From Synechococcus sp. MU1617 (GTDB lineage: Bacteria > Cyanobacteriota > Cyanobacteriia > PCC-6307 > Cyanobiaceae), in the NCBI RefSeq assembly GCF_020514235.1, contig NZ_VTLB01000001.1, forward strand, positions 62,001 to 126,000: a stretch of 64,000 nt of DNA, written 5' to 3'. The notes under the pieces are model-generated. The model had not been told where the DNA came from, searched no databases, and saw nothing but the letters and a program-made list of their open reading frames with translations. Below, piece after piece: positions 43,700 to 48,076 of this stretch. A program made the translations under genes and the position numbers. The first letter of the stretch is position 1; each line of letters begins with the position of its first letter.

Positions 43700-45685
43700 G
43701 TGGATGCCGCCTCCGGTGCACCGCTGCTGACGCAGCCCGAGCGTCTCGAACGCCGCCTCAAGGAGATCCCCGCTGAGCCGGGTTGCTATCTGATGCGAGA
43801 CGGCGACGACCGGATCCTCTACGTCGGCAAGTCGAAGGCGTTGCGTAGTCGCGTGCGCAGCTATTTCCGCAGCCGCCACGATCTGTCACCACGGATCCGG
43901 CTGATGACGCGCCAAGTCTGTGAGATCGAGTTCATCGTCACCGACAGCGAGGCGGAGGCCCTCGTGCTCGAGTCGAACCTGATCAAGAACCATCAGCCGC
44001 ATTTCAACGTGTTGCTGAAGGACGACAAGAAATATCCGTACCTCTGCATCACCTGGAGTGAGGCCTACCCACGGATTTTCATCACCCGTCGCCGCCGCTT
44101 CCGCAGTCCCCTTGATCGCTTTTACGGGCCCTATGTCGATGTCGGCCTGCTGCGCCGCACCCTGTTCCTGGTGAAGCGGGTGTTTCCGCTGCGCCAACGA
44201 CCACGTCCGATGTATCCCGACCGGACCTGCCTCAACTACAGCATTGGCCGCTGTCCGGGGGTCTGCCAGGAAAAAATCAGCTCAGAGGACTATCACCGCA
44301 CCCTGCGCAAGGTGGCGATGGTCTTTCAAGGCCGCAGTGATGAACTGCAGCAGCTGCTTCAGGAGCAGATGGAGCGGTACGCCGAGCGGATGGACTACGA
44401 GTCGGCGGCCCGGGTCCGGGATCAACTTCAGGGGCTGGATCAGCTCACCGCCGACCAGAAGATGAGCCTGCCGGATTCCTCCGTGAGTCGGGATGTGCTG
44501 GCCCTTGCCTTTGATGAACGGTTGGCGGCCGTTCAGCTGTTTCAAATGCGCGCCGGGAAGTTGGTGGGACGTCTCGGCTACACCGCCGACGCCTCAGGCC
44601 TGGAACCTGGACTGATCCTGCAACGGGTGATTGAAGAGCACTACAGCCAGGTGGATTCCGTTGAGGTTCCCCCCGAGCTGTTGGTGCAGCACGCTCTGCC
44701 CCAGCAGAAACTGATGGAGGACTGGCTCTCGGAACAGCGGGAGCGTCGGGTGCAGATCCACTGCCCCCAGCGCCAGCAGAAGGCCGACCTGATCGAACTG
44801 GTTCAGCGCAATGCGGAGTTTGAGTTGCTCCGCGCCAAGCAAGGCCAGGAGAAGCAGTCGTTGGCCACGGAGGATCTGGCGCAACTGCTGGAGTTGCCGA
44901 CCCCGCCCCGGCGGATCGAGGGGTACGACATCAGTCACATCCAGGGCAGCGATGCCGTGGCCTCCCAGGTGGTGTTCATCGACGGATTGCCCGCTAAGCA
45001 GCACTACCGCAAGTACAAGATCCGCAGCAGCAGCATCCGCGCTGGTCACAGCGACGACTTCATGGCGATGGCAGAGATCATGCGCCGCCGTTTTCGCCGC
45101 TGGGCTCGGGCCAAGGCGGAGGGGGTGGATGTGGGTGCCCTGCGTCACAAAGGCGGCAGCGCCTTGCAGACCGATGGCCTCAACGACTGGCCCGATGTGG
45201 TGATGATTGACGGCGGTAAAGGCCAGCTCTCAGCCGTGATGGAGGCCCTGCGGGAGCTGGATCTGCACGAGGATCTCAACGTCTGCTCCCTCGCCAAGCA
45301 GCGCGAAGAGGTGTTTCTCCCCGGCGAAAGCCAGCCGCTGGAGAGTGAACCGGATCAGCTCGGGGTTGTGCTTCTCCGCCGCTTGCGGGACGAAGCCCAC
45401 CGTTTCGCCGTCAGCTTCCACCGCCAGCAGCGTGGTGAGCGGATGAAGCGTTCACGCCTGTCGGACATCCCTGGGGTCGGTCCCAAGCGGGTCAAGGATC
45501 TATTGGCTCACTTCCATTCGATTGATGCCATCCAGCTGGCATCGCTTGAGACCCTGTCCAAGGCTCCTGGTGTCGGCCCGGCGCTGGCCCGCGACATCCA
45601 CGATTTCTTCCACCCGTCGGAGGACGGCACCGACGCTGATGCCATGGCTGCTTTAGAAGGGCAGCCTCAGGAACTCTCCGCATGA
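43700..45685 (+). CDS. uvrC: Excinuclease ABC subunit C
   Basis: A 661-residue nuclease that makes both incisions in nucleotide excision repair. The GIY-YIG domain is at the N-terminus ([20 protein letters not shown]), a UVR motif follows ([14 protein letters not shown]), then the RNase H-like domain ([28 protein letters not shown]) and tandem helix-hairpin-helix elements near the end ([25 protein letters not shown]). The start is GTG 43700. It overlaps the next gene as ATGA. Confidence 0.96.
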
Positions 45686-45969
45686 TCCGTCATCTCTGCA
45701 TGGCTCTGGCTGGAGTGCTTCTGCTCGCCACTCCGGTCTGGGCGTCCCCCGGCCTGTGCACGGGGCCCGTGTGTGCCGATGGCATCACCCGCAGTGCCAA
45801 GAACCACTGGCAGTTGGTGCTGCGGCTCAACGATCAGCAGGGCCATCGAGAAAAAGTGGTGATGAATTGCCGGGCCGGCCAGCTGAGCCCCATGGCAGGA
45901 CCCGTGGATCGCGCCTATGCCACCGCCCTGGGCCGTCGTGCCTGCCGCCTTGCTGGGGAGGACAGCTGA
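45682..45969 (+). CDS. Small exported protein of unknown function
   Basis: A 95-residue protein with a Sec signal ([21 protein letters not shown]) and a mature part with four cysteines (CTGPVCADG near the start, NCRAGQ and RRACRLAG), which could form two disulfides. I do not recognise the family. It is translationally coupled to uvrC (ATGA) and 2 bp ahead of the photolyase-related gene, so it rides in a DNA-repair operon, though its export argues against a direct repair role. Confidence 0.65.
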
Positions 45970-45971
45970 CG

Positions 45972-47468
45972 GTGGATCTCAGTCTCGTTTTTCCCCATCA
46001 GCTGTTTGAGAACCATCCCGCGATCCAGCCGGGGCGAGCCGTGGCCCTGATCGAGGATCCGCTGCTGTTTGGTTCCGATCCCCGCTGGCCGATCCAGGTG
46101 CATCGGCAGCGCCTGCTTCTGCATCGGGCCTCGATGAATGCCTATGCAGAGATGCTTCAGGCCAAGGGCTTCTCTGTGCTGCGGATCCTGCAGGGCCAGG
46201 CGGCCAGCACCGCTGTGATCCTCGGGGGTCTGCTCGATCAGGGCTACCGCTCCTTTCATCTCGCGGATCCGGTGGACGATGTTCTGACCCAACGGATCTC
46301 CGCCTTCGCATCACGCCATGACTGCGGTCTGGAGGTCGTCCCCACCCCGATGCTGCTCACCCCAGAGGCCGTCATCGATGACCATTTTGGCTCCGGCAAG
46401 AAGCCCCTGATGGGTCGCTTCTACGAGATGCAGCGCAAGCGACTGGATCTGCTGATCGATCCGGATGGTGGCCCTGTCGGCGGCCGCTGGAGTTTCGATG
46501 CCGACAACCGCAAGAAGCTTCCCAAGGGAATCCTTGTCCCTGAGCTCCCCGCCGAACGTTCGAGCAGCTCGATCGCCATCGTCAACACCGCTCGGCAGCA
46601 GCTGATTGAGGAGGGGGTGGCCGGCATCGGCAGCTGGGACGGCTTCCATTACCCCGTCACCCATGGCGATGCAGCCCGTTGGTTGGATCAATTCCTCGAT
46701 CAGCGGCTGCGCCAGTTCGGGGCTTACGAAGATGCGATCAGCACCCAGCACCAGGTGATGTGGCACAGCGTGCTCACGCCAATGCTCAACATCGGTTTGC
46801 TCACGCCGCAGCAGGTGCTGGATCGAACGCTGGAACGGGCTGAGGCCGGTGATGTCCCCCTCAATTCATTGGAGGGATTTCTACGTCAGATCGTCGGGTG
46901 GCGAGAGTTCATGGCCGCGATGTACCGGCGCCATGGTGTCGAGATGCGTAACGGCAATTTTTGGGGCTTTGAAGACCGACCGATCCCTTCAGCTTTTTAC
47001 ACCGCTTCCACGGGACTGCCTCCGATTGATGACGCCATCCGCCATGCCCTAGAGACCGGTTATTGCCATCACATCGAACGTCTGATGCTCCTGGGCAACG
47101 TGATGCTCCTCTGCGGATTCCATCCAACCCGGATTTACTGCTGGTTTATGGAGCTGTTTGTGGATGCCTACGACTGGGTGATGGTGCCCAACGTCTATGG
47201 CATGAGTCAGTTTGCCGATGGTGGCATCTTCACCACCAAGCCTTATCTCTCCGGGTCGAACTACGTTCGCAAGATGTCGGACTACCGCAAAGGCGAGTGG
47301 TGTGACACCTGGGATGGCTTGTTCTGGAGTTTCATCCATTGCCATCAAGACTTCTTCCGGCGCCAATACCGCCTGGCGATGATGGCCCGGAATCTGGATC
47401 GCATGGCTTCCGATGTTCTGGCGGCCCATCAACGCCGGGCCAGCGATTTTCTTGACGCTCTCACCTGA
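45972..47468 (+). CDS. Photolyase/cryptochrome-related protein (DPRP / FeS-BCP family)
   Basis: A 498-residue flavoprotein of the deoxyribodipyrimidine photolyase-related family, whose studied members are (6-4) photolyases or cryptochromes with a 4Fe-4S cluster. Signs are SLVFPHQLFENHP at the N-terminus, SWDGFHYPVTHGDA, GWREFMAAMYRRHG and GYCHHIERLMLLGN. GTG 45972 starts immediately after the exported protein. Cysteines in the cluster region are C365, C381, C390, C444 and C457, but the pair normally following the KMSDY motif (434-438) seems absent. It may lack or have a rearranged cluster. Confidence 0.83.
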   Translation: MDLSLVFPHQLFENHPAIQPGRAVALIEDPLLFGSDPRWPIQVHRQRLLLHRASMNAYAEMLQAKGFSVLRILQGQAASTAVILGGLLDQGYRSFHLADPVDDVLTQRISAFASRHDCGLEVVPTPMLLTPEAVIDDHFGSGKKPLMGRFYEMQRKRLDLLIDPDGGPVGGRWSFDADNRKKLPKGILVPELPAERSSSSIAIVNTARQQLIEEGVAGIGSWDGFHYPVTHGDAARWLDQFLDQRLRQFGAYEDAISTQHQVMWHSVLTPMLNIGLLTPQQVLDRTLERAEAGDVPLNSLEGFLRQIVGWREFMAAMYRRHGVEMRNGNFWGFEDRPIPSAFYTASTGLPPIDDAIRHALETGYCHHIERLMLLGNVMLLCGFHPTRIYCWFMELFVDAYDWVMVPNVYGMSQFADGGIFTTKPYLSGSNYVRKMSDYRKGEWCDTWDGLFWSFIHCHQDFFRRQYRLAMMARNLDRMASDVLAAHQRRASDFLDALT

Positions 47469-47503: not shown

Positions 47504-48076
47504 ATGACGTTTTCGCCTGAGGCCTACCTCTGGTTCAAGACCCTGCACATCGTTGGAGTTGTGGTGTGGTTTGCAGGCCTCTTCTACCTGGTGCGCCTGT
47601 TCATCTACCACGTTGAAACCGAGGAACTGGCGCCGGAATTGCAGCAGCCGTTTCGCGATCAATACACCTTGATGGAGAAACGTCTCGCCAACATCATCAC
47701 CACGCCCGGTATGGCGGTGGCGGTGTCGATGGCCATCGGGTTGCTGCTGGCCCAGCCCTCCTGGCTTCAGCAGGGCTGGATGCACGCCAAGCTCGCCTTC
47801 GTGGCGGCTTTGCTGGCCTATCACGTGTTTTGTTACCGGCTGATGGGCCAACTCCACGCCGGCACCTGTGCCTGGTCGGGCAAGCAGCTCCGCGCCCTCA
47901 ATGAGCTGCCCACGTTGCTGCTGGTGATCGTGGTGATGCTGGTGGTGTTCAAAACACAGTTCCCCACCAGCGCAGCGAGCTGGTTCATCGTCGCCCTGGT
48001 GGTGTTCATGGCGGCGTCGATTCAGTTCTATGCCCGTTGGCGCCGACTGCGGGCCGAAGCCTCCGCTAAAGCTTGA
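47504..48076 (+). CDS. hemJ: Protoporphyrinogen IX oxidase HemJ
   Basis: A 190-residue membrane protein of the UPF0093/HemJ family, the cyanobacterial enzyme that oxidises protoporphyrinogen IX for heme and chlorophyll. It has about four to five helices; key features are LHIVGVVVWFAGLFYLVRLF (conserved His), TTPGMAVAVSMAIG, and the conserved basic WMHAKLAFV segment. ATG 47504 is chosen; GTG 47498 and TTG 47501 directly precede it in frame. Confidence 0.92.
   Translation: MTFSPEAYLWFKTLHIVGVVVWFAGLFYLVRLFIYHVETEELAPELQQPFRDQYTLMEKRLANIITTPGMAVAVSMAIGLLLAQPSWLQQGWMHAKLAFVAALLAYHVFCYRLMGQLHAGTCAWSGKQLRALNELPTLLLVIVVMLVVFKTQFPTSAASWFIVALVVFMAASIQFYARWRRLRAEASAKA

Follow-up and report, generated by a model that had tools for sequence, protein, structure and literature searches.

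A probable cluster-free prokaryotic (6-4) photolyase of the picocyanobacterial Phr2/PromaPL type in Synechococcus sp. MU1617

Introduction

The photolyases of the FeS-BCP group carry four cysteines for a 4Fe-4S cluster, whose role in 6-4 photolyases was called elusive in 2025 (PMC12082625). A stretch of 64,000 nucleotides of Synechococcus sp. MU1617 (the window) holds the gene of a related protein in which these cysteines are not in their places. The initial annotation placed KMSDY at residues 434–438, followed by RKGEWC with C444, which the translation confirmed exactly, and raised the question of whether the protein has lost the cluster or binds it through different ligands, and whether this bears on the electron-transfer path and the function. 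The window protein is regarded here, with high confidence, as a cluster-free prokaryotic (6-4) photolyase of the picocyanobacterial Phr2/PromaPL type.

Cluster-free 6-4 photolyases are already known in kind. In the available text of PMC4619345 (2015), cluster-free homologs made up 7% of 464 sequences, and PMC12082625 mentions that the ligand cysteines are missing from several orthologs. PMC9178010, citing Ma et al. 2019, counts PromaPL of Prochlorococcus among the 6-4 photolyases that lack the cluster and describes a cluster-free "subgroup M" of 6-4 photolyases comprising 20 of 110 sequences. PromaPL, Cyanorak Phr2 and subgroup M are, likewise, cluster-free DPRP-type photolyases of marine picocyanobacteria. 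The window protein was found to be of the DPRP type, to lack the ligand cysteines and to be separated from the FeS-BCP rows in a phylogenetic tree. Compared by published description, not letter by letter, it showed no difference from them. The finding is very probably known already for direct orthologs. Neither the C381/C444 signature nor the exchanged lesion assignment of Phr2 and Phr4 presented below was found in the accessible parts of the open-access literature.

Gene, Product and Neighborhood

The phr2-type prokaryotic (6-4) photolyase gene (45972..47468; all window coordinates refer to the plus strand) begins with GTG and encodes 498 amino acids followed by a stop, and homology to the closest relatives starts at residues 1–4. 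The best named protein match was from Synechococcus sp. MU1642, with 96% identity, and the closest PDB relatives were the FeS-BCP enzymes SePhrB (8IJY), Caulobacter (Cc, 9HNK), Vibrio (Vc, 7YKN), PhrB (4DJA) and CryB (3ZXS), with E values of 1.9e-63 to 3.1e-75. The N-terminal DPRP (antenna) domain (PF04244 in Pfam) was found at residues 5–227 (45984..46652), with 147.9 bits (cut-off 22.1) and an E value of 5.3e-43. FAD_binding_7 scored 25.2 bits in the protein and so stayed slightly below its cut-off (27), which a six-frame search passed with 27.1 bits; this borderline score would reflect DPRP-type divergence. The NCBIfam search of the protein gave two matches only, each far under its cut-off. 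The window protein differs from class I CPD photolyases in that PF00875, their N-terminal domain, gave no match at E 0.001 and the active-site pair is His/Leu instead of Asn/Met. A pseudogene or frameshift was ruled out by the open frame of 498 codons and by dN/dS values of 0.09–0.12 in five of six pairs, two of the five having high dS (1.9 and 2.4) and the sixth, with L010, giving no value on account of an ambiguous codon. The gene is under purifying selection.

Upstream lies the excision repair gene uvrC (43700..45685), with the Pfam domains UvrC_RNaseH_dom, UVR and GIY-YIG. A small ORF of 95 amino acids (45682..45969), with no match in Pfam, overlaps the uvrC stop and ends 2 bases ahead of phr2; the three are tightly packed (43700–47468), with a 4-base overlap followed by a 2-base gap. 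The gene of a UPF0093 protein (47504..48076; PF03653) follows downstream. The order uvrC, 95-aa ORF, phr2 and UPF0093 was found at 32 of 51 loci (29/48 without the window copy and two duplicates), and the remaining 19 had none of these neighbors of phr2 in the flanking DNA compared, which was short for some. The genes of dark (uvrC) and light (phr2) repair may lie on one transcript.

Ligand Sites and the Shortened Loop

In the PDB and MAFFT alignments, the PhrB ligands C350, C438, C441 and C454 correspond in the window protein to P351, a gap, a second gap and D445, respectively. None of the four known ligand sites thus holds a cysteine, and the loss of the cluster, one of the two options in the initial annotation, is supported by these vacant sites and by the deletion of a 10-residue stretch that includes the CxxC with ligands C438 and C441. 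The protein has six cysteines in all (C118, C365, C381, C390, C444 and C457). The shortened loop K434–D448 (KMSDYRKGEWCDTWD; 47271..47315) corresponds to the one housing ligands 2–4 in PhrB, and C444 (47301..47303) within it faces PhrB A453, one residue ahead of the fourth ligand, C454.

The distribution of these characters was evaluated over the 125 rows of the MAFFT alignment, a non-random sample made up of the window protein, 120 distinct relatives and four PDB chains. Ligand cysteines were absent from 89 rows and complete in 36, with no intermediate (the incomplete L016 was scored at the first ligand site only). P351 (47022..47024), in the place of the first ligand, is Pro in all 89 cluster-free rows, and this column is Cys in the 36 others. 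The cluster-free rows further share W443 and W447 (88/88 rows with letters), D448 (87/89) and two clade-specific conserved cysteines, C381 (47112..47114; 86/89) and C444, adjoining the lost fourth site (85/89); neither column has Cys in any of the 36 cluster-bearing rows. Since P351, W443 and W447 are invariant in the cluster-free rows and dN/dS is low, the altered ligand sites are attributable neither to chance nor to a sequencing fault. Judged from the sequence, the window protein would be free of iron.

Fold and Repair Residues

The AlphaFold2 model, built with 18 sequences (four of them cluster-bearing), had a mean pLDDT of 88.8 and a pTM of 0.89. It was closest to 4DJA, with a VIA Z of 47.5 and an rmsd of 2.1 over 485 residues. 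Ten prokaryotic 6-4 photolyase entries gave Z values of 41.7–47.5 and the other listed entries 29.2 at most; in Foldseek, prokaryotic 6-4 photolyases again came first. An earlier model from nine sequences, with pLDDT below 50 at residues 403–441, placed the same family first in Foldseek (TM 0.72–0.76 to the query) and was superseded by the 18-sequence model. The five FeS-BCP enzymes named above share the fold of the window protein (VIA Z 41.7–47.5), its inner Trp and its residues for catalysis, lesion binding and the Mg-site, CryB being likened by fold and E value only. The window protein differs from them in its identity of only ~30%, in the missing ligand cysteines and 10-residue stretch, and in having Y343 for the outer donor W342 of PhrB and R52 for W53 of the Caulobacter antenna pocket.

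Residues H366, H367, R370, L371, M411, W391, D176 and D254 were invariant in all 125 rows, as were Y425 and Y431 in the 124 rows with letters. The residues of a DPRP-type (6-4) photolyase (H367, L371, Y425, Y431, D176 and D254) are, consequently, all present. D176 and D254 match Asp179/Asp254, which we take to be the Mg-site of PhrB. The catalytic pair H366–H367 (47067..47072) corresponds to H365/H366 of PhrB. In that enzyme, repair was reported to require His366 and, to be efficient, Tyr430, with Tyr424 needed to bind the lesion (PMC4619345). By analogy with PhrB, the window protein most likely repairs (6-4) photoproducts.

Which Lesion Is Repaired

This reading runs against a published assignment. 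On the strength of the missing cluster, the mBio study of 2022 (PMC9426592) predicted CPD repair for Phr2, with 6-4 repair left to Phr4/Phr5. The active-site pair of the Phr2 type is His/Leu (H367 and L371) in all 89 cluster-free rows. The same genome also holds an ORF of 323 amino acids (L129:4644-5612, minus strand; G000:C2) with cysteines aligned to all four cluster sites, the pair Asn/Met, and the Pfam domain FAD_binding_7 with no DPRP domain. It is overlapped by a second ORF that runs in the same direction but in a different frame, the layout described for phr4/phr5 in PMC9426592, and the length of the first ORF, its cysteines and this overlap suggest that it is Phr4. It belongs to the same superfamily as the window protein and is its mirror image, combining the four cluster sites with Asn/Met. 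The class I enzyme of the genome has Asn/Met and no cysteines at the ligand columns. According to PMC4619345, the replacements H366N and L370M in PhrB are changes to the CPD counterparts, and L370 alone was not essential, so that the 6-4 argument hangs on the His. In SPL proteins, the cluster is found together with CPD repair (PMC9649867).

The active-site residues suggest, therefore, the opposite of the 2022 assignment of Phr2 and Phr4/Phr5. We lean, with some reserve, towards the view that cluster and substrate are uncoupled in marine Synechococcus, the cluster-free Phr2 being of the (6-4) type and the cluster-bearing Phr4/Phr5 of the CPD type. That, in addition to this uncoupling, the C381/C444 thiols now stand in for the lost cluster in a redox or structural role is unlikely.

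The converse, that the window protein is a CPD photolyase as proposed in 2022 for the cluster-free Phr2, is distinctly improbable. It draws on the disruption of phr2 in Synechococcus RS9916, which lowered survival under UV-B ~1,000-fold and under UV-C 20–30-fold, on the light-dependent UV-B protection that RS9916 phr2 conferred on E. coli, and on the argument that UV-B yields relatively few 6-4 lesions, all as reported in the accessible text of PMC9426592, with whose own assignment the survival data fit in part. Against it stand the residues that separate the classes, H367 and L371, which are of the 6-4 type in every one of the 89 cluster-free rows, the Asn/Met pairs that both the Phr4-like ORF and the class I enzyme carry in this genome, and the citing of PromaPL as a cluster-free 6-4 photolyase in PMC9178010. 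The Phr2-like enzyme of V. cholerae was said in PMC9426592 to be without the cysteines; the 7YKN (Vibrio) row, contrary to this, has all four ligand cysteines, and the crystal structure in PMC9852545 assigns Cys357, 445, 448 and 461 to the cluster. Because active site and cluster point in opposite directions in Phr2 as in Phr4, the published assignment of both enzymes is directly testable.

Nearby Cysteines, Electron Path and Antenna

A cluster held by other ligands, for example C365, C381 and C444 with a non-cysteine residue, is highly improbable for the window protein. Five cysteines do lie in the region, and of the 88 rows with letters in the columns of both C381 and C444, 83 have Cys in each. 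The remaining three are less well kept among the cluster-free rows (C365 in 59/89, with Asn or Ala in 28/89; C390 in 5/89; C457 in 3/89), and C381 and C444 are lost independently, one being kept without the other in four rows (L015, L072, L087 and L088). Since only C381 and C444 are conserved among the five, an all-cysteine 4Fe-4S site is unlikely, and the different ligands offered as the second option in the initial annotation found no support. Alternative cysteine ligands were rejected as a candidate for the same reasons, two conserved residues out of five and their independent loss in four rows. An obligate replacement of the cluster by a C381–C444 disulfide was, likewise, unsupported, in view of the four rows that keep just one of the two.

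The cluster-free homologs in the available text of PMC4619345 were also without Tyr at positions 437, 443 and 460. In the present cluster-free rows with letters, the columns of PhrB Tyr437 and Tyr460 have Tyr in 55/88 and 26/88, respectively. Because of this clash, the 7% set of that study probably covers just part of the present clade, or else the deletion is aligned differently in the two studies.

The window protein keeps the inner Trp (W391) and has F392 as its bridging residue, a position taken by Phe in 89/89 cluster-free and 31/36 cluster-bearing rows. In PhrB, Trp390 and Trp342 conduct electrons to FAD and the Y391F variant still photoreduces (PMC4619345, PMC5887102). The outer donor W342 is replaced by Y343, with Tyr in 64/89 and Trp in 3/89 cluster-free rows; this column varies in the cluster-bearing rows too (Trp 24/36, Glu 11/36), so the change is not strictly tied to the cluster. 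PhrB Tyr460 corresponds to F451, and the PhrB variant Y460F showed normal repair (PMC4619345). Cluster and FAD are ~18 Å apart in the Caulobacter enzyme, and its authors saw no indication that electrons pass directly from one to the other (PMC12082625). With this distance, the retained W391 and an F392 common to both kinds of rows, the idea that the altered cluster region bears on the electron-transfer path turned out weak.

The antenna of FeS-BCP enzymes is DMRL or 8-HDF. At residues 47–52 (46110–46127), in the surroundings of antenna and FAD, K48 and W53 of the Caulobacter enzyme are replaced by R47 and R52. The W53 column has Trp in 31 of the 36 cluster-bearing rows; in the 89 cluster-free rows its five most frequent entries are Arg (53), Phe (18), Lys (7), Gln (6) and a gap (3), with no Trp among them, which suggests that the antenna of the window protein may be different or absent. 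CofG and CofH gave no match over the cut-off in the genome (G000; best 35.9 and 19.3 bits); among 14 control genomes, each passed its cut-off in 3. For the class I photolyase of this genome, the best match was an 8-HDF-type model, with 649 bits, under the cut-off of 884.6.

That the window protein is a cryptochrome-like light sensor without DNA repair, as might be thought from CryB of Rhodobacter, a member of the same family reported also as a gene regulator (PMC9178010), is hardly credible, given that the tested repair residues are all present and that the RS9916 ortholog confers light-dependent UV survival on E. coli (PMC9426592).

Proposed Mechanism and Loss of the Cluster

In the proposed mechanism of the cluster-free (6-4) photolyase, photoexcited FADH- would hand an electron to the lesion, with His367 donating a proton, Tyr425 holding the lesion and Asp176/Asp254 binding Mg2+; FAD would then be re-reduced via the chain of F392 and W391. 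The clade's ancestor would have lost the 4Fe-4S cluster along with the CxxC stretch, and the deletion would have been closed by a shorter conserved packing of P351, W443-C444-[D/E]445-x-W447-D448 and C381, a role presumed from their conservation. Replacement of single cluster cysteines in PhrB, or growth without iron, gave little or insoluble protein (PMC4619345). Because PhrB depends on the cluster for soluble protein in this way, its loss would have needed compensation. Three PhrB cysteine mutants yielded no soluble protein (PMC4619345), which makes the natural cluster-free enzymes a usable comparison. They suggest that the cluster is unnecessary for the repair chemistry, and the conserved replacement residues mark changes that may render it dispensable.

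The loss of the cluster is old and clean. In a maximum-likelihood tree of 77 rows, calculated with the trait columns omitted, the 40 cluster-free rows lie beyond one branch (support 100/99), and the cluster label requires a single change of state; the tree is unrooted, with long branches for L076, L136 and L110 and odd letter composition in 18 rows. The change is read as a loss and not a gain, with the Phr4-like protein as outgroup, because this protein, which has no DPRP domain, aligns Cys to the four ligand columns.

The window protein was matched in 156 of the 201 genomes of its family. Among the matches listed, 57 genomes had the cluster-bearing type (at least 59% identity to L097), 95 the cluster-free type (at least 42% identity to the window protein) and none both, against 27 expected if the two were independent; for part of the genomes the type was called from identity and not from the cysteines, and kinship may inflate this exclusion. 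Four further matching genomes had fragments only or a weak match. Both types, in different genomes, were found within five genus codes (g5, g21, g25, g30 and g40, the last depending on one partial match, G064). The exclusion fits a scenario in which both types do the same job and one has replaced the other.

Iron scarcity was reportedly proposed by Ma and co-workers in 2019 as the reason for the loss. As the sole cause it is disfavored by the Phr4-like ORF, with its four cluster cysteines, retained in the same genome, and by the occurrence of cluster-free relatives in assemblies named as Verrucomicrobiota and Bacteroidota. The latter (L013, L015 and L016), along with an unassigned bacterial bin (L014), fall with the cluster-free rows in the tree, show 42–63% identity and may represent inter-phylum transfer or mis-binned contigs. 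Six IMG/VR contigs filed as viral (L131–L136) also carry relatives, two of them cluster-free (L131 and L136) and four with the cluster cysteines.
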